Below are positions 1,180 through 23,819 of a DNA stretch of 64,000 nt, piece after piece. The DNA lies in the NCBI GenBank assembly GCA_018241505.1, contig JAFEDS010000016.1, positions 62,001 through 126,000 on the forward strand, written 5' to 3'. A model generated the notes under the pieces. The model ran no database searches. It saw only the letters and a program-made list of their open reading frames with translations, and had not been told where the DNA came from. The stretch comes from Pseudomonadota bacterium (lineage in GTDB: Bacteria > Pseudomonadota > Gammaproteobacteria > Steroidobacterales > Steroidobacteraceae). How positions within the stretch are numbered: the stretch's first letter is position 1; each line of letters starts with the position of its first letter. The position numbers and the translations under genes were made by a program.

Positions 1180-2019
1180 ATGAACGAAGCTGCAAACAGC
1201 CGGGTGGCCGTGGTCACCGGCGCGGGTCGCCGCGGCGGACTGGGCGCGGCCATTGCGCGCAGGCTCGCCAACGAAGGTTGTCATGTCGTGTTGTCTGATA
1301 TCGGCGCGTCGGCGGATGCCACGACTCCGGAATCGATGATCGCAGCCCGCGAAGAGATGCAGGCACTGGCCGCCGACCTGGCGGATGAGTCGGGAATGGG
1401 GGTGGTGCCGTTTGAATGCGATGTGCGCAACGCGACCCGCATGAACGAGCTGGCCCAATTCGCCCGGCGCGAGCTGGGCTCGCTCGACATCTGGGTCAAC
1501 AATGCCGGCATTGGTTATCTCATGAAGCCGCTGCTCGACATGCGGGATGAGGAGTGGCGCGCGGTCATTGATGTCAACCTCACAGGGTGTTTCAACGGCA
1601 TCCAGGCCGCCGCACGCGTCATGATTCCGCAGGGCACCGGCGGTCGCATCATCAACGTCGCGAGCCAGGCCGCCAAGTCCGGCTTCCCGTTCGCGGCAGC
1701 CTACTGCGCTTCCAAACACGGCCTCGTCGGCCTGGTGCGCTCGGCCGCTATCGAGCTGGGCCAACATCGCATTACCGTCAACAATGTCTGTCCCAATCAC
1801 GTCACCACCGGGCTCGGCGCCTGGCAGAACGAGTACTTCTCCAAGAAGCTGGGCCTGACGCTCGAGCAGTACCTCGAGCAGATGACCCGGCGGATTCCCA
1901 TGCAACGCCGCGGCCTGCCCGAGGACACGGCCAATGCCGTGGCCTTTCTGTGCTCGGCGCAGGCCGGCTATATCACCGCGGAATCCATGAATGTATCCGG
2001 CGGAGAAGAGCCGCATTGA
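1180..2019 (+). CDS. short-chain dehydrogenase/reductase (SDR)
   Basis: A 279-residue NAD(P)-dependent oxidoreductase of the classical SDR family. The Rossmann nucleotide motif is TGAGRRGGLG near residues 13-22, the NNAG motif follows near 107-110, and the catalytic Ser...Tyr-x3-Lys is visible as the ASQ segment plus YCASK. The tail AESMNVSGGEEPH matches the usual 'G..l.vdGG' end. Substrate cannot be read from the sequence. The gene follows the HapK-like gene by 11 bases and precedes a methyltransferase by about 100 bases, which suggests a shared catabolic or tailoring pathway. Confidence 0.85.
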   Translation: MNEAANSRVAVVTGAGRRGGLGAAIARRLANEGCHVVLSDIGASADATTPESMIAAREEMQALAADLADESGMGVVPFECDVRNATRMNELAQFARRELGSLDIWVNNAGIGYLMKPLLDMRDEEWRAVIDVNLTGCFNGIQAAARVMIPQGTGGRIINVASQAAKSGFPFAAAYCASKHGLVGLVRSAAIELGQHRITVNNVCPNHVTTGLGAWQNEYFSKKLGLTLEQYLEQMTRRIPMQRRGLPEDTANAVAFLCSAQAGYITAESMNVSGGEEPH

Positions 2020-2048
2020 TGCACCTGCGATGAAAATATACCTTTCTA

Positions 2049-2076
2049 TTGCAGGGGTAAATGAAAAGTATAGAAT
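2049..2076 (+). promoter_or_regulatory. candidate sigma-70 promoter before the methyltransferase
   Basis: In the 99-base gap after the SDR gene there is an unusually AT-rich stretch with TTGCAG (2049-2054) and TAGAAT (2071-2076), 16 bases apart. It could give the methyltransferase its own transcription start. This is motif reading only. Confidence 0.3.
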
Positions 2077-2118
2077 GATTGCCACGCACAGTTGCGCGAC
2101 TGCCGCGGGGATACGGGC

Positions 2119-3300
2119 ATGCCATTCGAATTGCGTCACGATCTTGCGGCCGAGGCAGACCGGGATACGTCCGCGCGCCAGGATTTTGTCTCCCAACTTC
2201 GCGGCTACATTCTCAATGACATGGCAGCGGCCATGCGCGACAGCTACGAAAGCCGCGTCCTGCCTGCGTTTCAACGAGCTCACGGGCGCGCGCCGCAGAC
2301 ACAGGATGAAGTCCATGCCGCCATGCGCTCGAATACCAGCTTCAAGTTCTATAGCTCGGTCCGCTACAACGCCCAGGAGATGGTCTGGCGCTCGGTAATG
2401 CCCGCGGCGACACAGTCGCTGCCGAAGCTCGAGGCGAAGATCCGTTTGCTCAGTGGCAAGTCCGGTGGCAGCCTGACGCTGGATCCGCAGCTAACAGTAC
2501 CTGAAAATGTCGCCGACCTTCCGGTGCACCTGATGCCAGGGGGCTACGCCCCCTCGGACAGCCCGCTCGCCGGCGCAATCTACGACCACGGACTCGCGGT
2601 CTTCTCGGCCGGTTTCATGGGCCGCGACCTCGATGACATCGGCCTGTCGATGTCCAACTATGTGAAACACCGCTACCCGGACTTCAAACCCACGCGAATA
2701 CTGGATTGCGGCTCGACGGTCGGACACAACGCCGCCCCCTGGGCCCGCACGTTCCCGAATGCCGAAGTACACGCAATCGATGTTTCGGCCGCTACCGTCA
2801 CGTACGGGCACGGGCGCGCCGAGAGTCTCGGCCTGCCCGTCCATTTCCGGCAGATGGATGCTACGAACCTCAAATATGCCGACGACTGGTTCGATGTTGT
2901 ATTCACGTCCATGTTTCTGCACGAGCTGTCAGTGCGCGATATCCAGAAGTTCTTTCAGGAAGCACACCGGGTACTGCGCCCGGGCGGGATGTTGATCAAC
3001 ATGGAGCTGCCGCCCAACCGCGAGCTCGCGCCCTACGATCAGTTCTACCTGGACTGGGACTCGTACTACAACATGGAGCCCTACTACCGCACCTTCCGCG
3101 ATCAGAATCCCGAAGACCTGGTGCAAGCCGGCGGCTTCGCCGGGTCCGACTATTTCCAGTTCACGGTGCCGCAGTTTTCCTACATGGACGAGGCGGATTT
3201 CGCAGCGGCGGTCCATGCGCCATCCCGGATCGACGGCGACACTGGACGCCTGTCCGCCAGCCTGCAATGGTTCGGATTCGGGGCCTGGAAGCGCGAATGA
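2119..3300 (+). CDS. class I SAM-dependent methyltransferase
   Basis: A 393-residue protein. The start at 2119 (MPFELRHDLA) has GGGGAT about 8 bases upstream; an in-frame codon at 2092 would only add unconserved residues. The N-terminal ~180 residues are an unrecognised helical region. The C-terminal half is a Methyltransf_11-type domain: motif I ILDCGSTVGHNA with the acidic residue of VHAIDVS (near residues 194-225), then QMDATNLKYADDWFDVV, and HRVLRPGGMLINME. It should transfer a methyl group from SAM to a small molecule, substrate unknown. Its stop overlaps the next start (ATGA), implying translational coupling. Confidence 0.8.
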   Translation: MPFELRHDLAAEADRDTSARQDFVSQLRGYILNDMAAAMRDSYESRVLPAFQRAHGRAPQTQDEVHAAMRSNTSFKFYSSVRYNAQEMVWRSVMPAATQSLPKLEAKIRLLSGKSGGSLTLDPQLTVPENVADLPVHLMPGGYAPSDSPLAGAIYDHGLAVFSAGFMGRDLDDIGLSMSNYVKHRYPDFKPTRILDCGSTVGHNAAPWARTFPNAEVHAIDVSAATVTYGHGRAESLGLPVHFRQMDATNLKYADDWFDVVFTSMFLHELSVRDIQKFFQEAHRVLRPGGMLINMELPPNRELAPYDQFYLDWDSYYNMEPYYRTFRDQNPEDLVQAGGFAGSDYFQFTVPQFSYMDEADFAAAVHAPSRIDGDTGRLSASLQWFGFGAWKRE

Positions 3301-14350: not shown

Positions 14351-15997
14351 TTGAGCAGCATTCCCCCTGACGAGCCGGCGGCGCTCGCGGCCGCCTGGCA
14401 ACTGCAACACAGTGGCAACTTCGTTGCCGCGTTCGATCTTGCGCAGGAAGGCCTCAACCGCTGGCCCGACTCGCAGCCGTTACAACACGTGTCGATCCTT
14501 GCGCTGGCTTCGTGCGGCTCGACCGATGCCGCGCTGTCTGCGTTTCGGGCAAGCACGCTGGCTGGGACCGACAATGAGGATTTCCTGGCGCTCGAGGCTC
14601 GACTTCTCAAGGACCTCGCCTTCAAAAGCCCGGCCCACGCGGCTCAGCCACAGCTCGCAGCCGCCGCCACGGCCTATGAGCGAATTGCGCAGCGGACCGG
14701 TGGTCACTACACCGCGCAAAACGCCGCATTGTTGTGGAAGTTGGCGGGTGTCGATGCACAGGCCACCCGGTTGGCGTCGGCAGTGCTTGCTGATCTCAGT
14801 GCGCCCGGTGCTCCCGCCGATGCGCAGGCGGCCTACTTTCATTGGGCAACACTGGCTGAGGCCGCTCTCGTCCTGGGTGATCGCGAGAAGCTCGAGGACG
14901 CGGTCAGCAACGCAAATCCATTGTGTCGGTCCAACTTGTGGGCACGCGCGCGCACTCTCACGCAAATGCGGCGATTGCTGGTTTCGCGGCCGGAGTTCAC
15001 TGACATCGTAGAACGCTGGTATCGGCCGTCGGTGGGGCTAGTGCTCAGTCGGGATCAAACTCCGCCGCGGACCGGGGTCTGCGCAGCGCCAGCCCTTGCG
15101 TATGCGGTGGGTGAGGATCCTGACAACTGCTGGCAACAACTCAAAACGCAAGGGATCGGGCTGCACGTCATCGATGCCCATCGATCGGTGACCCGGCACG
15201 CATCAGGCCATCTCGATGGTCATACATGGTCCAGCCTGCTGTTGGATGAAGACGATGATGCGCGGCGCGCGTGCGCCGAAGCAGCGCTCGGCCTGTCGCT
15301 TGGACTTGCGGACGCAATGCAGGCTCCCTGGGTTGTCTTCGATCCCGCCGCCGCGGCCTGGCGCCCCTGTCAGGATCGCGACCGTGTCAGCCTGGTGGCC
15401 CAATATACTCACAACACAGCCCGGCCCAGCCCCGCCCGGTTTGGAATCCTGTTCGCCGATGCCGTCGGCTACTCAAACCTCAGCAGTGCCGATACGCGGC
15501 GCTACTGGACGAAGCTGTTGCCTGAAGCGGTGTTACCCGTGCTGCGACGCCATTCCGGATCGGTGGTGTTTCGCAAGACGTGGGGGGATGCCATCCATGT
15601 TGTTTTCAAATCCGCCGCCGCGGCCGCGCGCGCGGCGCTCGAAATGAATGCCGCGACCGCAAAGCTGGCGGAAGAGCTCGAATTCGGCCGGCGCCTGGAA
15701 TTTCGGATGGCGGTGCACTTCGGCAGGGCCGACAGCAACCTCGACCCGATAGAGGAAGCACCGACTTTCTACGGCCCGCAACTGTCATTGGCCGCGCGCA
15801 TCGTGCCGGTTGCTCCTCCGGGTGGCGTGTTTGTAACCGAGACCTGTGCCGCGCAATTGAGCCTCGAAGGTGTCACCGACATCGACTGCGCCTACATCGG
15901 CACAACGAGCCTGGCAAAGGACTATGGTCGGATGCGCCTGCTCACTCTGACTTCCCCGCCGCCAGCCCCTGGAGCGCGGCCTCATCCAGGATTGTGA
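14351..15997 (+). CDS. soluble class III nucleotide cyclase with TPR-like N-terminus
   Basis: A ~548-residue protein, probable TTG start (the ATG at 14340 runs into a stop after four codons). Residues ~1-200 are alpha-helical and TPR-like (AAAWQLQHSGNFVAAFDLAQ, GLNRWPDSQPLQHVS). The C-terminal ~190 residues are a class III cyclase domain: FADAVGYS (first metal Asp, ~366), WGDAIHVVF (second Asp, ~411) and LSLAARI (~480). The transition-state Asn that normally stands two residues before Ala-Arg is replaced by Ser, so activity may be weak. No membrane segment is seen. Its 3' end overlaps a convergent CRP-like gene by 56 bases. Confidence 0.75.
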   Translation: MSSIPPDEPAALAAAWQLQHSGNFVAAFDLAQEGLNRWPDSQPLQHVSILALASCGSTDAALSAFRASTLAGTDNEDFLALEARLLKDLAFKSPAHAAQPQLAAAATAYERIAQRTGGHYTAQNAALLWKLAGVDAQATRLASAVLADLSAPGAPADAQAAYFHWATLAEAALVLGDREKLEDAVSNANPLCRSNLWARARTLTQMRRLLVSRPEFTDIVERWYRPSVGLVLSRDQTPPRTGVCAAPALAYAVGEDPDNCWQQLKTQGIGLHVIDAHRSVTRHASGHLDGHTWSSLLLDEDDDARRACAEAALGLSLGLADAMQAPWVVFDPAAAAWRPCQDRDRVSLVAQYTHNTARPSPARFGILFADAVGYSNLSSADTRRYWTKLLPEAVLPVLRRHSGSVVFRKTWGDAIHVVFKSAAAAARAALEMNAATAKLAEELEFGRRLEFRMAVHFGRADSNLDPIEEAPTFYGPQLSLAARIVPVAPPGGVFVTETCAAQLSLEGVTDIDCAYIGTTSLAKDYGRMRLLTLTSPPPAPGARPHPGL

Positions 15998-16634
15998 CTT
16001 TGCCGCGACCCACATCAACCCAACCCCGGGTGCGCCATTCCTGTAGATACTGATTGACGGCCTGGCGCGAGAGTCCGAGGAAACGCCCCAGCTCCTCCTG
16101 CGAGATCGCCAGTTGGACTCCCTTCGGGACGGGCCGTCCATGCAAGTTCGCAAGGCTCAGAAGGCGCCGTACCAGCCGTGTCGGCACGGTCAGCAGCGCC
16201 GAGTCTTCCACCCAACCGCTGGTCCAACGAATGCGCTGACAGAGCAACTGCAGCAGGTGAATTGCGAGCGCCGGCTCCCGCTGTAACAGGGCGAGAAACT
16301 GGGCGCGGGGGATGATCATCAGTTCGCAGCTCGAGGTCGCGGTGGCGGTGGCGGTCCGCGACTGGCCGTCCAGAAGCGCGATCTCACCGAACGTATCGCC
16401 GGGCTCCATGATGTTCAGAAACATCTCCCTGCCCTCGCGAGTGCTGGCGCTGATGCGTACCTGGCCGGTCACGACACCATAAAGCGCATCCCCAGGGTCT
16501 CCCTGCGAAAACACGATGGCGCCGTCTGCGTAGACACGCCGGACCGCCAGACCCCCTATCTGCTGGATGGTCGCTGCGGAAAGCCCGCGAAACAGGCGGT
16601 TACGCTCGAGAAGGGTCTGCACCGACAAAGCCAT
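15942..16634 (-). CDS. CRP/FNR-family transcriptional regulator (copy 1)
   Basis: A 230-residue regulator starting MALSVQTLLERNRLF. The cyclic-nucleotide domain has FGEIALLDGQSRTATATA, retaining the Glu, Arg and Thr/Ser that bind cAMP in E. coli CRP. The C-terminal helix-turn-helix ISQEELGRFLGLSRQAVNQ aligns without gaps to CRP, giving S-R-Q-A-V-N-Q where CRP has S179-R-E-T-V-G-R185. Arg180 is kept; Glu181 is Gln. There is no Cys cluster of the FNR type. It is convergent with a cyclase gene and divergent from urcA, with a TGTCAG-N4-CTGACA palindrome in the shared upstream region. Confidence 0.9.
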   Translation of the reverse strand: MALSVQTLLERNRLFRGLSAATIQQIGGLAVRRVYADGAIVFSQGDPGDALYGVVTGQVRISASTREGREMFLNIMEPGDTFGEIALLDGQSRTATATATSSCELMIIPRAQFLALLQREPALAIHLLQLLCQRIRWTSGWVEDSALLTVPTRLVRRLLSLANLHGRPVPKGVQLAISQEELGRFLGLSRQAVNQYLQEWRTRGWVDVGRGKVTILDEAALQGLAAGKSE

Positions 16635-16681
16635 GAATGAACGCCTTCGCACCCGGAAACCTGCCGAAGCATAGCGGCTTG

Positions 16682-16697
16682 TGTCAGGCACCTGACA
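16682..16697. promoter_or_regulatory. CRP/FNR-type palindrome TGTCA-N6-TGACA
   Basis: TGTCAG-GCAC-CTGACA is a perfect 6-4-6 inverted repeat in the divergent region between the CRP-like gene (start 16634) and urcA (16772). The geometry is that of CRP/FNR sites. The same form occurs at 23701. It is a candidate autoregulatory operator. Confidence 0.6.
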
Positions 16698-16771
16698 GAA
16701 CGGGCCGTGCATCCCGCGCACCATGGCTCCCGTGGACGAAAGGTTGTGAGACGAACGTAAAGGAGCTGATC

Positions 16772-17080
16772 ATGAACATGCAGAACACAAATAGTGCCTT
16801 CCGGATGACTTGGGTAACGCTGACCGCGCTGTCGGCGGCAATGCTGGTCGGTGTGTCGCACGCAGCTTCCCCAGGCGACGTGCCCAGCCAGACGGTGGCC
16901 TACCAGGACTTGGACTTGAACAGCGACGCAGGCGTTCAGGCTCTCTACCGGCGAATTCAGTTTGCCGCGGACCAGGTGTGTGGCGAGGCGGATACCCGCG
17001 AGCTGGCGAGATTGCACGTCAAGAAGGCCTGTGTCGACCGGGCGGTCTCGGATGCGATCGCCACTGTAATCCACAAATGA
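16772..17080 (+). CDS. urcA: UrcA family protein
   Basis: A 102-residue exported protein with ribosome site AAGGAG seven bases before the ATG at 16772. Signal peptide: MNMQNTNSAFRMTWVTL...SHA, cut near residue 31. The mature part, YQDLDLNSDAGVQALYRRI then AADQVCGEADTRELA and KKACVDRAVSDAIATV, has the two Cys and the 'v.y.DLdL.s..G...Ly.Ri..AA..vC' pattern of the UrcA family. UrcA proteins are small, abundant periplasmic proteins of unknown function in alpha- and gammaproteobacteria. It is divergent from a CRP-like regulator and followed by a strong hairpin. Confidence 0.85.
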   Translation: MNMQNTNSAFRMTWVTLTALSAAMLVGVSHAASPGDVPSQTVAYQDLDLNSDAGVQALYRRIQFAADQVCGEADTRELARLHVKKACVDRAVSDAIATVIHK

Positions 17081-17090
17081 GTGGCGGTAA

Positions 17091-17116
17091 GCCGCCCCGG
17101 TGTTGGCCGGGGCGGC
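17091..17116. terminator. strong GC stem-loop after urcA
   Basis: GCCGCCCCGG and CCGGGGCGGC form a perfect 10-bp stem with a 6-base loop, 11 bases after the urcA stop and just beyond the stop of the convergent Hsp70 gene. No T-tract follows on either strand, so it may act as a 3' end stabiliser rather than a classic intrinsic terminator. Confidence 0.55.
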
Positions 17117-17128
17117 CGGCAGGTCAGA

Positions 17129-18430
17129 TCATCCACGGGCCGCGCGCAATGCAAGGCCCGTGGCAACCGAGGTGAATTCACGCCCTCCGGCAATCTTCTG
17201 CGCCCCGAACCGCTCGGCGAACAGGCGGCGGACGGACGGCACAAATGCCGATCCTCCGGTCAGGAAAACATGGTCAATGTCTTCACTGCGCACACCGGTG
17301 GTGGCCAGCAACCGATCCACCGACCCGCCGATTGCATCCAGCTCCTGTTGTATCCACTGTTCGAATTCCGCGCGGGCCACCGTTCTGGAGATCGTCGCCG
17401 GGCCACAGTGAAAGTCGAACGTCGCAACCGGGTCTTGCGACAGAGCAGTCTTCAGGGCCTTGACCGACTCATGCAGCTTAAATCCAAGGTCGGCACTGAC
17501 AAAGTACGCGAACGCCTCGAGCGCGGCGGGCGCCAATGCCAGCGGCCGCAGCCGTTCCAGGATCTGCAACACCTTGGGCCTATTCAACAGCGACAGGGAG
17601 TGCCATTGCTCGAGTCCCGCGTACGGCCAGTTCGGGACCGGCAGCGTCTTGTCGGGCGCCGCCTGATACTCGGTGCCGAAGCCAAGGGCGGGCGCCACGA
17701 GGTGCCTGACAATCTGGCGATCGAACGCATCGCCGGCGATGGCAACGCCCTCGTTGCCCAGGATCACCCGCTCGCCGGAAGCATCGCGCGCCGCACCCGG
17801 CCCGACGGGCAGGAGCGAAAAATCGCTGGTGCCGCCGCCGAAGTCGCCCACCAGAATCAACTCGTCGCGCCGCAGTGTCTGCTCATAACTATAGGCCGCG
17901 GCGACCGGCTCATATTCAAACACAACGTGCTCGAAGCCACACGCCTGCACGGCCTTCAGCAGTTGCGCCTGCGCGAATGAGTTGGCGGACTCGGAACGCT
18001 CGTTTGAAAAGTTGACGGGCCGGCCCACCACCACGCGCTGCGGAATCGGGCCGATGGTCGCTGTCGCAGCCTCCAACAGCTTGCGCAGAAAGGCAGCAAT
18101 CAAATCGGCAAGCGTCAGGTGCCTGCCATAGAGGCTCGTACCTTCGAACGACCGGTCGGCGAGGTACGCCTTGAGCGAACGAATCAGCCGTCCAGGCGAG
18201 TCATGGCTCAGGTAGCGCTCGATGGCCGCCGCTCCCGCATGCGCGCGCAGGCTGGGCATGCCATTTTCAACTTCACGCTCAAAATGCAGGATGGATGGAA
18301 AGGTCTCGGTGGTGCCTGCCGGGCTGCTGAAGGTCGCGAGGCGCGCTACACCAGTCGCGTCCACGCAGGTGACGGCACTGTTGGACGTCCCGAAGTCCAA
18401 CCCGATGCTCTTGGGACGAATATTCGACAT
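17129..18430 (-). CDS. Hsp70-family (YegD-like) ATPase lacking substrate domain
   Basis: A 433-residue actin-fold ATPase. It has phosphate-1 GLDFGTSNSAV (~9-19), phosphate-2 LVGDFGGGTSDFSLL and the adenosine motif VFLTGGSAFVPSVR near the C-terminus, with VVGRPVNFSNER between. It stops after the nucleotide-binding domain: the ~200-residue peptide-binding domain and lid of DnaK are absent, as in the YegD group. Partners and function are unknown. It lies 62 bases downstream of the second CRP-like gene on the same strand, with an inverted repeat (GGCCGGC...GCCGGCC) just before its start. Confidence 0.85.
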   Translation of the reverse strand: MSNIRPKSIGLDFGTSNSAVTCVDATGVARLATFSSPAGTTETFPSILHFEREVENGMPSLRAHAGAAAIERYLSHDSPGRLIRSLKAYLADRSFEGTSLYGRHLTLADLIAAFLRKLLEAATATIGPIPQRVVVGRPVNFSNERSESANSFAQAQLLKAVQACGFEHVVFEYEPVAAAYSYEQTLRRDELILVGDFGGGTSDFSLLPVGPGAARDASGERVILGNEGVAIAGDAFDRQIVRHLVAPALGFGTEYQAAPDKTLPVPNWPYAGLEQWHSLSLLNRPKVLQILERLRPLALAPAALEAFAYFVSADLGFKLHESVKALKTALSQDPVATFDFHCGPATISRTVARAEFEQWIQQELDAIGGSVDRLLATTGVRSEDIDHVFLTGGSAFVPSVRRLFAERFGAQKIAGGREFTSVATGLALRAARG

Positions 18431-18492
18431 GTGACCGGCCGGCGCGGCAAAAGGCCGGCCAGACTAGCAGACTTCCGCGCCGCACCGGCAGT

Positions 18493-19179
18493 TCAGGACT
18501 CGCGGATGAGAGTTTCGAGGGCGGGACTGTCGCGGACAATGACGTTGCCGCGCCCCAACTCGAGCCAGCCGCTGGATTTCCAGCTCTGCAGGTGTTGATT
18601 CACAATCTGGCGCGACACACCGAGGAATTGGCCGAGCTCTTCCTGGGACAGCGAGACTTTGATACCGGCGGCCGTGGCGCGCCCGTGCAGGTCCGCCAGG
18701 CTCAACAGCCGTTTCGCGATTCGGGCCGGCACACTGAGCAGCGCCGAATCCTCCGTGGCCTGCGCCGTCCAGCGCACACGGCTGCACAGGAGTTTGATCA
18801 AATGTCGCGCCAACCGCGGCTCGCTGTCCAACAGGCGCAGAAACGGCTCGCGCTGAAGGATGGATAGCTCCGTGCGTGTCATGGCGGTCGCCGTGGCGGT
18901 GCGCGGCATCCCATCGAGCAACGCAATCTCACCGAACGAGTCGCCCGGGCCGATGATATTGAGGAATACCTCCTTGCCGCCCGGCCGGCTCGCGCTGATG
19001 CGTACCCGCCCGCTCACCACGCCACAGAGGGAGTCGCCCGGGTCCCCGCGCATGAAAATGACCGCTCCCTGTTCGTACACGCGGCGGCGGCCGAGCGCGG
19101 CAATCCGTTCCACCGTAGTTTTCGACAATCCACGGAACAGATTATCGCGTTCAATGACGGTCTGGGCGGTGATGGCCAA
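18493..19179 (-). CDS. CRP/FNR-family transcriptional regulator (copy 2)
   Basis: A 228-residue paralogue of the regulator at 15942: MAITAQTVIERDNLFRGLSK, effector domain FGEIALLDGMPRTATATA, and helix-turn-helix LSQEELGQFLGVSRQIVNQ. The recognition residues (SRQxVNQ) are the same as copy 1, so both should read the same DNA. The cAMP-contact Glu, Arg and Thr are kept. It is divergent, across 74 bases, from the operon of barrel protein, cupredoxin and membrane cyclase, which makes that operon a likely target or partner. Confidence 0.9.
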   Translation of the reverse strand: MAITAQTVIERDNLFRGLSKTTVERIAALGRRRVYEQGAVIFMRGDPGDSLCGVVSGRVRISASRPGGKEVFLNIIGPGDSFGEIALLDGMPRTATATAMTRTELSILQREPFLRLLDSEPRLARHLIKLLCSRVRWTAQATEDSALLSVPARIAKRLLSLADLHGRATAAGIKVSLSQEELGQFLGVSRQIVNQHLQSWKSSGWLELGRGNVIVRDSPALETLIRES

Positions 19180-19253
19180 ATGGGGGCTGCCTGGCTGCGG
19201 GATTCGGCGACCTGTTGGAGTATAGTCCGGCCAATCTCGGAGGTGAGGTCATC

Positions 19254-20471
19254 GTGTCGTCTGCCCGAGCATGGATTGCCTCGTCCGTCCTCCTTTCGTT
19301 CGGCCTACTGCCGTTCCCCGCAGTTGCCCAATACGCTGTCGAGCAACAAAGCAGTGTCTGGTTAAAGGGACTGTTCGATGTGCGCGCGGTCGGGGGCGGT
19401 CCGGCGCCGAGTTGGACCGAGGGCGGGCCCGGAAAATTACGCTATGGCGGAAGCAGCTCGCAGGAGGGCTTGCAACGCTCTACGCGTCTGACTTTGTCCC
19501 AAGCCGCCGTGCAAATAGGCGCAACTCTCCCGTGGGGCATCCGTGGGCAGGTGCAATTGAACATGGAGCCCAATATTGCGGACGGTTATCACCCGTGGCT
19601 GGTGGAGGCCCTTTTGCGCAAGGAATGGACTGCCGGCAACGGCGGCTGGGGACTGCAGACCGGTGTGATGCATGTGCCCTTTTCCCTCGAAAACGTGGGT
19701 CCGGCATGGTCGCCCGAATACTCGATTTCGAGCTCCGCACTGAACAGTTGGTTGTGGGAGGACATCAGCCTCGCGGGCGCCGAGGGCGAGTGGTGGCACA
19801 CCACCGGCACGGGAATCAAACTGGACGCCGTGGTGGGAGCCGGGGCCGGCGCGGACCAGACCGGCCGCCTGCTGGCCCTTCGCGGTTGGGTGATGGGCGA
19901 CACCCTGAGCGGCATCAATGGCAGTTTGGCTCTACCCGGTCGTAGCGAACGCACCGATATCTTCAATGAGCGCGACCAACGTCCGGCGCTGTATGGCTCG
20001 TTGTCCTTGGGCGACGAGGCAGACACGGTGTCTGTCAAACTCGGGATGTTCGACAATAGCGGTGACGAAAGCAGTCGGGGCGTCTGGCATACGCATTTCA
20101 CCACTGCGGGACTGGCAATCCACGCCACTTCACACATCGACCTGCTGACGCAGTTCCTGACCGGGACCGCGAGAGTGGCCGCCCCTCCCAACGACAGCTC
20201 CTTCCGTGCCACGTACGGCCTCGCCTCGTATCACTTCAGGCAACAGCGAGTGAGTCTGCGTTATGACCAGTTTCGCGTCCACGACCTGGACGGCGGCCCC
20301 ACATCGACCAATGAGCACGGCAATGCCGTGACCGCCTCCTACCAGGTACAGTTCGGATTGCGACATCGGATTGCGCTCGAGCACATCTGGATGTATAGCC
20401 ATCGCGACGCGACGGGGTCACTCGATCCGACACCCGATGGATGGCAGGTCGGCTATCGGTTCCGCTTCTGA
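19254..20471 (+). CDS. outer-membrane beta-barrel (porin-like) protein
   Basis: A 405-residue protein. The GTG at 19254 was chosen because GGAGGTGA stands 10 bases upstream and a signal peptide (VSSARAWIASSVLLSFGLLP...AVA-QYA) begins there. The mature chain is made of alternating amphipathic strands (RLTLSQAAVQIGATL, RGQVQLNMEPN, YGSLSLGDEADTVSVKLG) and ends in YRFRF with a terminal Phe, the outer-membrane insertion signature. It is likely a porin or an outer-membrane anchor; family uncertain. First gene of a three-gene operon: 16 bases to the cupredoxin gene. Confidence 0.75.
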   Translation: MSSARAWIASSVLLSFGLLPFPAVAQYAVEQQSSVWLKGLFDVRAVGGGPAPSWTEGGPGKLRYGGSSSQEGLQRSTRLTLSQAAVQIGATLPWGIRGQVQLNMEPNIADGYHPWLVEALLRKEWTAGNGGWGLQTGVMHVPFSLENVGPAWSPEYSISSSALNSWLWEDISLAGAEGEWWHTTGTGIKLDAVVGAGAGADQTGRLLALRGWVMGDTLSGINGSLALPGRSERTDIFNERDQRPALYGSLSLGDEADTVSVKLGMFDNSGDESSRGVWHTHFTTAGLAIHATSHIDLLTQFLTGTARVAAPPNDSSFRATYGLASYHFRQQRVSLRYDQFRVHDLDGGPTSTNEHGNAVTASYQVQFGLRHRIALEHIWMYSHRDATGSLDPTPDGWQVGYRFRF

Positions 20472-20487
20472 CACCCGGGAGCCGTAC

Positions 20488-21144
20488 TTGCACCGACATA
20501 ACTTCACCAGCACCTGCCTCGTTGCACTCGCAATGATTGTCGGTGCGCGAGCGCATGCCGCGGCTCCGGCTATCACCGGTACCGTGTCTAGCGCGGACGG
20601 CGCGCCGGTCACCGACGCCGTTGTATTCGTACAGTCTCCTGTGCCGGAGCCGGAAAAATCCCCACCCATGCAGGTCGTCGACCAGGTCAACAAGACATTC
20701 GTACCGGGCTTGTTGCCGATTGTGGTGGGGACGGCGGTACGGTTTCCGAACCATGATCAAATACACCACCACGTGTACTCTTTTTCGCCGACCAAGACCT
20801 TTGAATTGCCCTTGTACAAAGGCGAAGCGGCCGCGCCGGTCGTGTTTGACAAGGTCGGTGCCGTCAAGATCGGCTGCAACATTCACGATTGGATGTCGGG
20901 AATCATTCTCGTGCTGCCTTCGCGTCACTTTGCCGTCACCGATTCAACCGGCCGCTTCACTCTCAACGATCTGCCTGCGGGCACTTACACCCTGGTTGCG
21001 TGGCACGCACGCAGCAAATTGAAGCCGGATGAGACCGCGCAGTCGGTGCAGGTCGGAGCCGAGGTCGCGAACCTGACTTTCAAGCTGCCCCTGGCCCCAC
21101 CCCGGCCCAGGCCCGCGATGCACGGCACCCGGGCAGAGCCATGA
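20488..21144 (+). CDS. periplasmic cupredoxin-like protein ('methylamine utilization' type)
   Basis: A 218-residue protein with a TTG start at 20488 (GGGAG six bases upstream) and a signal peptide ending ARAHA-AAP. The middle is a plastocyanin-like copper domain: PNHDQIHHHVYSF supplies a His (~89-95), and GCNIHDWM (~130-137) supplies Cys, His and Met, the type 1 copper set. The tail GRFTLNDLPAGTYTLVAWH is a carboxypeptidase-regulatory-like beta sandwich. It should carry one electron or sense copper in the periplasm. Its stop overlaps the cyclase ATG (ATGA), so the two are co-translated. Confidence 0.8.
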   Translation: MHRHNFTSTCLVALAMIVGARAHAAAPAITGTVSSADGAPVTDAVVFVQSPVPEPEKSPPMQVVDQVNKTFVPGLLPIVVGTAVRFPNHDQIHHHVYSFSPTKTFELPLYKGEAAAPVVFDKVGAVKIGCNIHDWMSGIILVLPSRHFAVTDSTGRFTLNDLPAGTYTLVAWHARSKLKPDETAQSVQVGAEVANLTFKLPLAPPRPRPAMHGTRAEP

Positions 21145-22901
21145 GGTGGTGGCATACCCGCAGCCTGCGCGCCAGGATTTTCATAGCGTTTTCGGTTCTC
21201 ATTCTTGCCGTTCTACTGGCAACACTGGGATTGACTCAGCTCATTGTCGGGCAGGACGCGCGCCAAACCCTGAGCCGCGAGTTGCGCACCACTGGACAGG
21301 TGTTCCAGAGCCTGCTGCGCGAGCGCGCCATCCGCCTGCAAACCAACTCGACACTGCTGGCCAGCGACTTCGCGCTGAAGCGGGTGTTTGCGACTCATTT
21401 CGACCCTGCCAGCTACGATTCGGAAACACTGGCGTCCGCGGGCCTGAGTTACCGGCAGCGCATCGGTGTGCAGCTCGTATGGATGACCGACGAAAGGGGC
21501 ACGCTGCTCGCGGCATCGCCCGGTGAGGGCCGGATCGGCCAGTCACTCGCCGGCTTCGCGCCTCTCAAGGAAGCACTCGAAAGCCAGGCGCCCGCCACCG
21601 CGGTCGTCGAAGTCGACAACGAGGTGTTCCAGATGGTGGCCGTGCCGGTCCTCGGGCCGGATGTCATCGGCTTTTTGCTGTTGGGCCAGGTCATAGATGA
21701 CCAGGTCGCCCGGCGTTTGCAGCAGGACACCCATTCGGATGTGACCTTCCTGACCGATTCGGCCGTGTTTGCGTCCTCGTGGCCTGAATCCAGCCGAAGC
21801 GCTCCACAGCTCATCCGGATGCTGCCCGAGGTGCGGCTGCAGAATCCGCGGCTGCTGAGCATGCGTGGTGAGCGATACCTTTCACTAGCGGTCCCGATCG
21901 TTGCGAATCTGGGAAAGCCTCTCTACGTGCTCATTCAGGGCTCGTATGACCGGGCGCTGGCGCCATTGCACACCCTGCAGTGGCGAATCGCGGTGATCGG
22001 CCTCATCGCGTTGGCGGGCGCACTGATCACTGGAATCCTCCTCGCCGGGGGAATCACCGGGCCAGTGCGGTTGCTGGTGAACGCCATGCACGAGATTCCG
22101 CGGGGCAATCTGCGCCATCGGCTGCGAGTCGAGCGCAACGATGAGATCGGGTTTCTGTCGCGCTCCTTCAATGAGATGGCTGAAGGCCTGGAGGAACGCG
22201 AGCACATCAAGGATACCTTCGGGCGATTTGTGTCACGCGATGTGGCCGAAGCGGTCCTCAGCGGCCGCGTGCCGCTGGCCGGCGAGCGCCGCGAAGTCAG
22301 CATCCTGTTTCAGGACATCCGCGGTTTCACCGCCTTGTCGGAAAAGCTCGATCCGGTCGTCCTGCTGCGCCTGTTGAATCAGTTCTTCACTGAAGCGGTG
22401 GCGGCCGTGGAAGCCGAAGGGGGCGTGGTCAAACAGTTCACGGGCGATGGCGTGATGGCCTTGTTTGGAGCACCTCAGTCCCGTACGGATCACACCGAAC
22501 GCGCCGTGCGCGCCGCGCTGGGAATCGTCACGCGGCTCGCAAACCTCAATGTGTTGTTACAGAACAGCGGCGCCGCGCCGCTGCAGATTGGCGTTGGAAT
22601 TCACACCGGCGAGGTGGTGGCCGGGCTCATCGGCCCGGACGAACGCATCGAATACGGTGTTGTGGGCGAGGCAGTCAATTTGGCGAGCCGCATCGAATCG
22701 CTCACGAAGGAACTGACCGCCACCATTCTCGTATCCAAGGAAATCGCAGCCCGGCTGGGTTCGGAATTCGTGCTGGGCCGCACCGCACTGCTGCCGGTCA
22801 AGGGAAAATCCCAGCCGGTGGAAGTCGTCGAAGTGCTCAGCCGTCCGCTGCCTGCGCCCGGGCCTCAGGGAACAGGGCGGACCTCCGGGACCGCCCTGTA
22901 G
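21141..22901 (+). CDS. membrane sensor adenylate/guanylate cyclase (HAMP)
   Basis: A 586-residue transmembrane cyclase. TM1 is ~13-35, the extracytoplasmic sensor domain ~36-275, TM2 ~276-300, HAMP ~298-352 (GPVRLLVNAMHEIPRGNLRH, NDEIGFLSRSFNEMAEGLE), catalytic domain ~375-560. The catalytic motifs are complete: ILFQDIRGFT (metal Asp), VKQFTGDGVMALF (Lys and metal Asp) and GEAVNLASRIE (Asn and Arg). It should make cAMP or cGMP in response to a periplasmic signal. The ATGA overlap with the cupredoxin gene suggests that the sensed signal involves that protein. Confidence 0.9.
   Translation: MRWWHTRSLRARIFIAFSVLILAVLLATLGLTQLIVGQDARQTLSRELRTTGQVFQSLLRERAIRLQTNSTLLASDFALKRVFATHFDPASYDSETLASAGLSYRQRIGVQLVWMTDERGTLLAASPGEGRIGQSLAGFAPLKEALESQAPATAVVEVDNEVFQMVAVPVLGPDVIGFLLLGQVIDDQVARRLQQDTHSDVTFLTDSAVFASSWPESSRSAPQLIRMLPEVRLQNPRLLSMRGERYLSLAVPIVANLGKPLYVLIQGSYDRALAPLHTLQWRIAVIGLIALAGALITGILLAGGITGPVRLLVNAMHEIPRGNLRHRLRVERNDEIGFLSRSFNEMAEGLEEREHIKDTFGRFVSRDVAEAVLSGRVPLAGERREVSILFQDIRGFTALSEKLDPVVLLRLLNQFFTEAVAAVEAEGGVVKQFTGDGVMALFGAPQSRTDHTERAVRAALGIVTRLANLNVLLQNSGAAPLQIGVGIHTGEVVAGLIGPDERIEYGVVGEAVNLASRIESLTKELTATILVSKEIAARLGSEFVLGRTALLPVKGKSQPVEVVEVLSRPLPAPGPQGTGRTSGTAL
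22872..22899. terminator. stem-loop at cyclase 3' end
   Basis: ACAGGGCGG and CCGCCCTGT form a perfect 9-bp stem with a 10-base loop, ending inside the cyclase stop codon region. There is no T-tract. It probably protects or ends the operon transcript and faces the convergent gene at 22932. Confidence 0.45.
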
Positions 22902-22931
22902 GTAGTTGCGCTAAACGCCGCCGTCAGGCCA

Positions 22932-23624
22932 TCAGGGATCGCAGCTCGCCGGCCGGGTCGACAGGTTGGGGTCCGTGCAGAGCGGTCCCAGCTTCGACTC
23001 GTGCTGCGGCAGGCTGATCATGGCGAACGGTCCCGCCTTGTGCTCGCCATTGAAGGGCGTCGGTTTGGCCGGATTGAAGCCGCAAGGCGCCGCGTCCTGC
23101 GGATTGTTGAACCAGAAGCCCACGTGGAACGTGTTGGTCGGTGCGAGCTTCACGTCCGGGTCGAATCCGAAGATCTGATCCAGCAGGATCGTGCTGATCT
23201 GCACGTGGCCCCGGTCGCTGTGGTTGGGAATCTGGATGTCGGACTGATACCAGGCCAGGCCGAAGCTGCCCGTAAAGGCCGGGTCCTTCGCGCCGGTGGA
23301 CAGGAAGGGGCTGTGCTGCACTGTAAACAGGTCGAACTGCAGGCCCGACTTGAAGCCATCCAGATCGAGGATCAGCGTGTCATTGAGCCTGCCGCGGATG
23401 ACGGTGGCGTGAGCACGCGGTTCCTCGTTGTAGTTGGCACGCACGCACTCAACCGTCTGCGGATTGAGTGCGAGATCGAAGCCGATGCGGTCGGGTTTGG
23501 GGCTTCCGTTGACGATGCCGGCGCTGGCGGCGCCGATGTTGGCTATCGCCAGCGCACCCAACAGTGCGGCGCCGGCCTTGCCGGCGGCCCGCTTGCCTGA
23601 AAATGATCCGAGTGTCTTGGTCAT
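22932..23624 (-). CDS. secreted protein of unknown function
   Basis: A 230-residue protein starting MTKTLGSFSGKRAAGKAGAA with AAGKAGAALLGALAIANIGAA as an export signal, cut near residue 36. The mature part has beta-rich segments (IGFDLALNPQ, VIRGRLNDTLILDLDGF, FHVGFWFNNPQD), three or four Cys (VECV, APCGFN, PLCTDPN, ASCDP) likely in disulfides, and no recognisable family. AAGGAT precedes the ATG. It is divergent from the gene at 23820, and the shared region holds a TGTCA-N6-TGACA palindrome. Confidence 0.7.
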   Translation of the reverse strand: MTKTLGSFSGKRAAGKAGAALLGALAIANIGAASAGIVNGSPKPDRIGFDLALNPQTVECVRANYNEEPRAHATVIRGRLNDTLILDLDGFKSGLQFDLFTVQHSPFLSTGAKDPAFTGSFGLAWYQSDIQIPNHSDRGHVQISTILLDQIFGFDPDVKLAPTNTFHVGFWFNNPQDAAPCGFNPAKPTPFNGEHKAGPFAMISLPQHESKLGPLCTDPNLSTRPASCDP

Positions 23625-23700
23625 GTGTTTATCCTTGGTTGGTGGGGGTCTGTTTGAGCTCTCGACGGGGCCAAGGATGGCAGGCGGGGCCGGAGCGCTC

Positions 23701-23716
23701 TGTCAACCCTTTGACA
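23701..23716. promoter_or_regulatory. CRP/FNR-type palindrome TGTCA-N6-TGACA
   Basis: TGTCAA-CCCT-TTGACA is a perfect 6-4-6 inverted repeat in the 195-base divergent region between genes 22932-23624 and 23820-24629. It matches the site at 16682 in form (TGTCAR-N4-YTGACA). Nearby, TTGACG (23758) and TAAGGT (23782), 18 bases apart, could be the promoter of the + strand gene. Confidence 0.6.
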
Positions 23717-23819
23717 CAACGCGCTCTGCGTTTGCGGTGAACGTGGGTCACTATGTCTTGACGTAGGTATCTATGTACGGATAAGGTAGGAACGTGCCCG
23801 AGGCAGGTGCCCAATCGCA

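Follow-up and report, generated by a model that had tools for sequence, protein, structure and literature searches.

A CRP-like regulator subfamily linked to TGTC-N8-GACA-type operators and class III nucleotide cyclases in Steroidobacterales

Ordinary CRP combines an Arg-Glu-x-x-Gly-Arg recognition segment with TGTGA half-sites; in E. coli, Glu181 of CRP contacts the operator base that differs in the sites described below, and at class II promoters the operator centre lies ~41.5 bp upstream of the transcription start. In CooA, the Glu181 position is occupied by glutamine. Here we describe two CRP-like regulators, two TGTCA-N6-TGACA palindromes and two class III nucleotide cyclases from a 64-kb stretch (the window) of one Steroidobacteraceae genome (7.88 Mb, 46 contigs), in which positions 14,351–23,716 were studied in detail, and compare this locus with those of related genomes.

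To our knowledge, no local cyclase accompanies MrpC, a CRP-family protein of Myxococcus xanthus. Its motif TGTYN8RAC covers the window operator core, and it has hundreds of sites (PMC4320627). The site quoted for CRP itself is TGTGA(N6)TCACA (PMC5499769), and the operator consensus given for CooA of Rhodospirillum and Desulfovibrio is TGTCGGCNNGCCGACA (PMC545781), which has the TGTC-N8-GACA core of the window sites; the two window palindromes match the CooA-type form TGTCR-N6-YGACA. CooA senses carbon monoxide by haem and controls coo genes, whereas the regulators studied here carry a cyclic-nucleotide cassette and have cyclase neighbours, and no coo gene was named among the window neighbours whose families were searched. 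In gel shifts, Cmr (Rv1675c) of M. tuberculosis binds a palindrome of the same kind (TGTCAGCGTGCTGACA) in the promoter of its own gene; it acts as a repressor at one cmr promoter and as an activator at another and at the divergent gene, and responds to nitrosation and oxidation; a cyclase-linked locus, as found here, is not mentioned for Cmr in the sections of that report drawn on (PMC5499769). Having been published for CooA, Cmr and MrpC, the TGTC-N8-GACA code is not new to the superfamily, and the earlier note's proposal of an operator code peculiar to this system is not supported.

The best PDB sequence match of the regulator is 7pza, which we take to be Clr of Sinorhizobium meliloti; in 7pza, Pro-Lys follows the recognition Arg. 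Clr binds and responds to cyclic AMP (cAMP) and cyclic GMP (cGMP), and differs from the window system in its operator (HGTYHCNNNNGRWACA) and in its number of sites, with 417 intergenic chromatin immunoprecipitation peaks (PMC10127613). A class III cyclase gene linked to a cyclic-nucleotide receptor gene is described for XC_0250/XC_0249 of Xanthomonas campestris; the linkage is common to both systems, but the receptor there is a cNMP-GGDEF enzyme, not a transcription factor (PMC3770947). The present regulator subfamily, its cyclase linkage and its promoter geometry were not found described in searches of an open-access library. The window elements concerned are the following.

14351..15997, plus strand: cyclase 1, TPR-S and class III nucleotide cyclase-like domain (Pfam TPR-S 5.9e-08, Guanylate_cyc 4.7e-05; PDB alignment)
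15942..16634, minus strand: CRP-like regulator copy 1, recognition segment SRQAVNQ (Pfam, alignment, orthologues)
16679..16699, plus strand: extended operator TTGTGTC-N8-GACAGA (core palindrome 16682–16697) in the copy 1/urcA interval, oriented to urcA
16719..16724, plus strand: −10-like hexamer CACCAT, +30 to +35 from the operator centre; predicted transcription start near 16731
16772..17080, plus strand: urcA-family small protein, predicted target, exported-looking by eye (NCBIfam TIGR04433, 4.2e-20)
18493..19179, minus strand: CRP-like regulator copy 2, recognition segment SRQIVNQ (Pfam, alignment)
21141..22901, plus strand: cyclase 2, dCache_3-HAMP-class III cyclase (Pfam 8.9e-27; PDB alignment to 2w01)
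22932..23624, minus strand: secreted-looking protein (by eye), predicted target of the 23701 operator
23674..23679, minus strand: −10-like hexamer CATCCT, +30 to +35 from the operator centre; predicted transcription start near 23667
23699..23719, minus strand: extended operator TTGTGTC-N8-GACAGA (core palindrome 23701–23716), oriented to 22932–23624

Both regulators have the architecture of the CRP/FNR superfamily, cNMP_binding followed by HTH_Crp_2 (Pfam E 2.4e-27 and 2e-15 for copy 1, 1.5e-27 and 2.6e-14 for copy 2). They are 58% identical to each other, and their scores of 104 and 82 bits fall below the cut-off of 266 for the NCBIfam CRP equivalog NF008732. The ordinary CRP homologue of the same genome lies on contig C46 and has the segment SREMAGR; the helix-turn-helix of both copies aligns with it without gaps and places Gln at the Glu position, presumably Glu181 of E. 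coli CRP, and a second Gln stands at what we take to be Arg185. Rather than a CRP-type segment, both copies thus have RQxVNQ, and the window operators are of TGTCA type, in agreement with the SRQxVNQ segment and the Gln-for-Glu exchange claimed in the earlier note. The gene layout that it gave is equally sound: cyclase 1 is convergent with copy 1, their ends overlapping, and cyclase 2 is the third open reading frame in the run divergent from copy 2. The reading frame of copy 1 extends to 16724, with 16634 as its likely ATG. Likeness to E. coli CRP extends to the cNMP and helix-turn-helix domains, the cassette residues, the 5-6-5 spacing of the palindrome and a class II-like distance to the −10 box; the differences are TGTCA for TGTGA, and few local targets in place of a global regulon.

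Judging from sequence, this is very probably a cyclic-nucleotide-dependent class II activator that works beside its cyclase on a few local genes, apart from ordinary CRP. It would belong to a rare subfamily of CRP-like activators, here named CRP-Q, in which Arg-Gln-x-Val-Asn-Gln replaces Arg-Glu-x-x-Gly-Arg and which would read TTGTGTC-N8-GACAGA, with TGTCA rather than TGTGA half-sites. The adjacent class III cyclase would make the ligand, probably cAMP and possibly cGMP, and the liganded dimer would bind ~41.5 bp upstream of the transcription start and activate as a class II factor. Its targets would be few and mostly in its own locus, namely urcA or other small exported-looking proteins and, in some relatives, a TLC-type transporter gene; those in the window would be urcA and gene 22932–23624, and copy 1 itself is probably influenced too, by the operator in the interval that it shares with urcA. 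In this scheme we infer DNA binding, ligand, activation and the direction of autoregulation.

What the sequences show is an operator, a −10-like box at a constant distance from it, the association of this operator with the regulator, and that of the regulator with cyclases. A close relative of copy 1 is present in eight of 217 family genomes, its own included (E < 1e-70; next best 1e-25), and among 369 genomes drawn from the class its own genome alone has one at E ≤ 1e-45. In the noncoding DNA of seven relatives' loci (10.7 kb), TGTCA ranks first of 1,024 half-sites for exact 5-6-5 palindromes (three sites) and, with one mismatch allowed, seventh, behind GC-only halves; over the whole of the seven loci, again with one mismatch, it is joint first with two others among 120 halves of the same composition. 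Sites with at most one mismatch to TGTCR-N6-YGACA were kept at positions 823 and 3969 of L060, 7019, 11114 and 11507 of L062, 610 of L063, 1697 and 8320 of L065 and 3357 of L066 (L and G are our handles for loci and genomes), and none in L061, L064 or the more distant L021. Six one-mismatch sites (L062 4634 and 14436, L063 7 and 3958, L064 3705, L065 6889) were left out because they lack the shared flanks. Most aligned sites are flanked by TTG on one side and by GAR at the opposite end, so that they can be oriented, and the surroundings of the operator are alike in the crp–urcA intervals of the window and L060. The 12 defining sites, which L146 joined after the pattern had been counted in the 217 genomes, are not independent, several having a common leader.

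The extended pattern TTGTGTC-N8-GACAGA occurs at 15 sites in the 217 family genomes, compared with three for its backward control, a count that is not independent because the motif was derived from these same loci. Eight of these sites lie in five of the eight regulator-bearing genomes, each on the contig of the regulator and within ~7 kb of it; the remaining seven fall in six of the 209 family genomes without the regulator. One of these seven, in the incomplete genome G081, is flanked by a urcA gene and a class III cyclase that bears TPR repeats, on a 5.3-kb contig that carries no regulator gene. A composite search with GACAGA-N-TCACTCCCG gave 16 matches: a total length of 39 nt was found for five in four bearing genomes and one in G081, and for none of the 10 others. 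Conservation beside orthologues, which the earlier note had put forward as a check, is borne out by the extended operator, near the regulator at loci both within the family and outside it.

Two side observations concern these loci. A 286-bp stretch with the operator is found on two contigs of one genome (L147 10172–10455 and L060 3823–4107; 97.6% identity), one copy lying beside that genome's only Pfam-detected cyclase; it is either a repeat or an assembly overlap. In L060, a cNMP-binding domain fused to a patatin-like phospholipase (1533–3266) adjoins the regulator and urcA, and is possibly a second receptor of the same ligand.

The sites also share a promoter geometry. When oriented by their flanks, all 12 defining sites have xAxxxT, the two best-kept bases of the sigma-70 −10 box, starting exactly 30 bases past the operator centre, against a background mean of 0.39 of 12 over the 61 offsets tried and a maximum of three in reverse orientation. 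The transcription start would thus lie ~41–42 bases from the operator centre, a class II-like spacing. The alternative that survives best, although we consider it improbable, is that the operator mainly serves repression, for example of copy 1 by its own product, and not class II activation. In the direction of copy 1, the window has a −10-like hexamer at +17 (TATGCT) and L060 has one at +16 (TACACT), where a bound protein would block it, and reverse-direction matches among the 12 sites number three at +16 and two at +17; Cmr likewise represses one of its own promoters (PMC5499769). Against this, in both the window and L060 it is towards urcA and away from the regulator that the flanks and the −10-like box at +30 point; at the other sites they point towards the target genes given below.

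Activation by a cyclic nucleotide, as we prefer to read the locus, draws on both the regulator and its neighbours. The phosphate-binding cassette FGEIALLDG..RTA is intact in copies 1 and 2, and its Glu and Arg are present in all 27 close members aligned. At the positions that we take to be Thr127 and Ser128 of CRP, copy 1 has Thr-Ser and copy 2 has Thr-Ala; 17 of the 27 show Trp-Thr-Ser, and elsewhere Thr is changed to Val, Ile, Ala or Ser, or Ser to Gly or Ala. Leaving the window aside, 18 of 25 loci have a class III cyclase domain no more than 3.7 kb from the regulator, and in four of the seven without a nearby cyclase (L060, L064, L181, L184) the regulator is within 0.7 kb of a contig end. 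Pfam finds one to four Guanylate_cyc domains per genome in the eight bearing family genomes and G081, a lower bound that missed cyclase 1, and the chance of a cyclase in a 5-kb neighbourhood is ~0.5–1.4% per genome (five genomes). With so few cyclase domains per genome, the regulator–cyclase linkage is unlikely to be accidental.

Class III cyclases depend on metal-binding Asp residues, a transition-state Asn and Arg, and residues that select the base. Cyclase 2 has both metal Asp residues and the transition-state Asn and Arg (Guanylate_cyc; PDB alignment); its best PDB alignment is to 2w01, presumably the guanylyl cyclase Cya2, and Gln and Gly occupy its base-selecting positions. The cyclase 1 domain is divergent, with the metal Asp residues present and Ser at the position of the transition-state Asn (PDB alignment). 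As an aside, cyclase 1 opens with a TPR-S domain (window 14429–14734), which we associate with predicted bacterial conflict and signalling systems.

It is unlikely, in our estimate, that the regulator has no cyclic-nucleotide response, as concluded for Cmr, and that the neighbouring cyclases serve something else. The variation at the Thr127/Ser128 positions and the atypical cyclase residues would fit such a protein, as would Cmr, which binds the same kind of palindrome and which its authors conclude does not bind cAMP; work cited in the same report found that a cAMP analogue changed Cmr binding in BCG (PMC5499769). However, Cmr is without 15 of 17 pocket residues (PMC5499769), whereas the cassette Glu and Arg are kept throughout the close members here, and the linkage to cyclases in 18 of 25 loci speaks against bystander neighbours.

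A second regulator type, 40–42% identical, was also seen (L188 349–1008, L189 332–1003, L198 2611–3282). It keeps SRQVVN and has lost the cassette Glu (FGVVS, FGMIS, FGLIA), and in L188 and L189 its gene is preceded, at no more than 100 bp, by a TGTCA-type palindrome. Such a protein may read the same code independently of any nucleotide.

The extended operator was then sought in 366 order genomes, of which 225 lie outside the window's family. The regulator (protein search, E ≤ 1e-45) is found in 22 order genomes, 18 of these outside the family, and TTGTGTC-N8-GACAGA has 11 sites in eight of the 225. Outside the family the motif is present in six of 18 regulator-bearing genomes versus two of 207 non-bearing ones (p = 3e-6), and over the whole order in 10 of 22 versus five of 344 (p = 2e-10); these p-values are too small, since the genomes are related and kinship was left uncorrected. 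Four of the six out-of-family genomes with both motif and regulator (G639, G668, G675, G709) have a site within ~0.5 kb of the regulator. When a weight matrix built on the 12 defining sites was run over the out-of-family loci (18 loci, 224 kb), 13 had a site scoring at least 14.5, each with such a site within ~0.5 kb of the regulator. None of 50 control loci reaches this score (best 12.0; 155 kb, all from the window's family). The cut of 14.5 was chosen after the scores were seen; at 12.0, L184 and L195 (12.2 each) would count as well.

Paired operator-like sites, 37–42 bp or about four helical turns apart, occur in L180, L181, L182, L183, L193, L194 and L199, the weaker site of the L182 pair scoring below 14.5. 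This spacing suggests cooperative binding.

Somewhat less likely than either alternative above is that the sites are bound by the ordinary CRP homologue of the genome (C46, SREMAGR) and that the local CRP-like genes are unrelated passengers. A CRP-like match to copy 1 exists in 214 of 217 family genomes, C46 being one in the window's own genome, and the operator core is one base pair per half away from the CRP site. Yet the operator follows the SRQxVN protein in the order-wide comparison just given, and in E. coli CRP the residue exchanged here contacts the very base that is altered. Gln for Glu is accompanied by C for G at that operator base, as the earlier note had it; none of the 27 aligned close members departs from Arg-Gln-x-(Val/Ile)-Asn. 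In the divergent relative L197 the segment is NREAVNR, with Glu, and its locus yielded no site; as a single case it gives only a hint that the two changes go together.

That the two palindromes are chance matches near CRP genes has next to no standing: over the whole genome the short motif is no commoner than its control, but conservation, fixed spacing and the out-of-family comparison all contradict it. The earlier note was right that exact TGTCA-N6-TGACA palindromes occur at 16682 and 23701, and they are the only ones in the 64-kb window, where 0.06 are expected; two were reached in none of 100 shuffles. Both are intergenic by codon usage. The one at 16682 is inside the longest possible reading frames of both neighbours, and its intergenic status depends on the later starts 16634 and 16772. 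Genome-wide there are eight exact sites versus three for the backward control, with ~7 expected by chance (scaled from the window estimate), and the six outside the window all fall within predicted reading frames. On these counts, the window pair is notable by place and conservation, not by number.

Several results weigh against the activator scheme or limit its reach. The looser motif TGTCR-N6-YGACA is not enriched in the window's own genome (26 sites versus 28 for the control) and shows no promoter preference there (intergenic 4/26 versus 3/28). The promoter-versus-coding scan proposed in the earlier note accordingly came out null, and a genome-wide regulon of this motif was rejected; the power of the scan is low, since in 7.9 Mb chance matches drown out a 10-base pattern. 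The composite of spacer and leader has no match in the window's own genome, as its leaders differ. Within the family, L061 and L021 give only weak matrix matches (13.3 and 12.1; defining sites score at least 23 when left out), and L064, whose locus is cut at the regulator, has no site. Outside it, five of the 18 loci (L184, L192, L195, L196, L197) have no site scoring at least 14.5, the regulator being at a contig end in L184 and L192; apart from L197, the four loci without a site likewise have a Gln regulator. Only five of 11 out-of-family sites have the −10-like hexamer at +30. Several members replace Thr by Val, Ile, Ala or Ser at the Thr127 position, and in copy 2 the pair is Thr-Ala. The cyclase product is uncertain, cyclase 1 being without the usual Asn and cyclase 2 having unusual base-selecting residues.

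The copy 2 promoter and the divergent cyclase-2 operon also count against the scheme, as no operator was found at either. The candidate arrangement in which both crp copies and both cyclases come under the operator was rejected on that ground: the operator is at two window promoters only. The network proposed in the earlier note therefore has to be narrowed to copy 1, two promoters and a putative ligand. A local cyclase–regulator pairing with an operator of its own stands, being conserved also outside the family; the joining of both regulators and both cyclases into one network does not.

Targets were predicted from the 12 sites, and export of their products was judged by eye. They comprise urcA in three genomes (the window, L060 and L146, where it likewise adjoins the operator), a small protein of ~65 residues in four instances, a TLC transporter gene as direct target in two, and the 230-residue protein in the window; two are unclear. 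The earlier note placed the 23701 palindrome between two secreted-protein genes; the site exists, and its orientation assigns it to the minus-strand gene 22932–23624. In L063 and L066 a small gene precedes the TLC gene. In L065 the predicted TLC transcription start (1746) falls on the ATG of the gene, at +42, so that the mRNA would be leaderless. No urcA or TLC match was found in 20 order loci by tblastn, a further point against the scheme as far as its output is concerned; the conserved part is therefore the regulator, the cyclase and the operator, not the output.

The remaining genes of this part of the window are as follows.

17129..18430, minus strand: Hsp70/YegD-like protein (domain searches)
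19254..20471, plus strand: first gene of the run divergent from copy 2 (reading frame from 19215, GTG at 19254 the likely start)
20371..21144, plus strand: second gene of the run, carboxypeptidase-regulatory-like domain (start of the reading frame probably too early)

The Hsp70-like protein, related to YegD (PRK11678), is a neighbour that lies 3′ of copy 2. The reading frame of the first divergent gene has no match in Pfam or NCBIfam.

As far as sequence comparison can carry it, the finding is real and somewhat better founded than the earlier note could show. More tentatively, and with the odds somewhat against it, the subfamily may be a family of self-contained circuits, each with a Gln-code activator, its own class III cyclase and a few local promoters of fixed class II geometry, working alongside the ordinary CRP of the same cell but insulated from it, and in some members using cGMP in place of cAMP. 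The locus would provide a natural example of a CRP paralogue set apart from ordinary CRP by a single residue–base change with promoter geometry kept. With the cyclase, the regulator, the operators and the predicted start sites named, the proposal is testable, and it may offer a route to the little-known functions of UrcA and of TLC-type transporter genes in these bacteria, as well as a test of whether bacterial cGMP circuits are commoner than thought.

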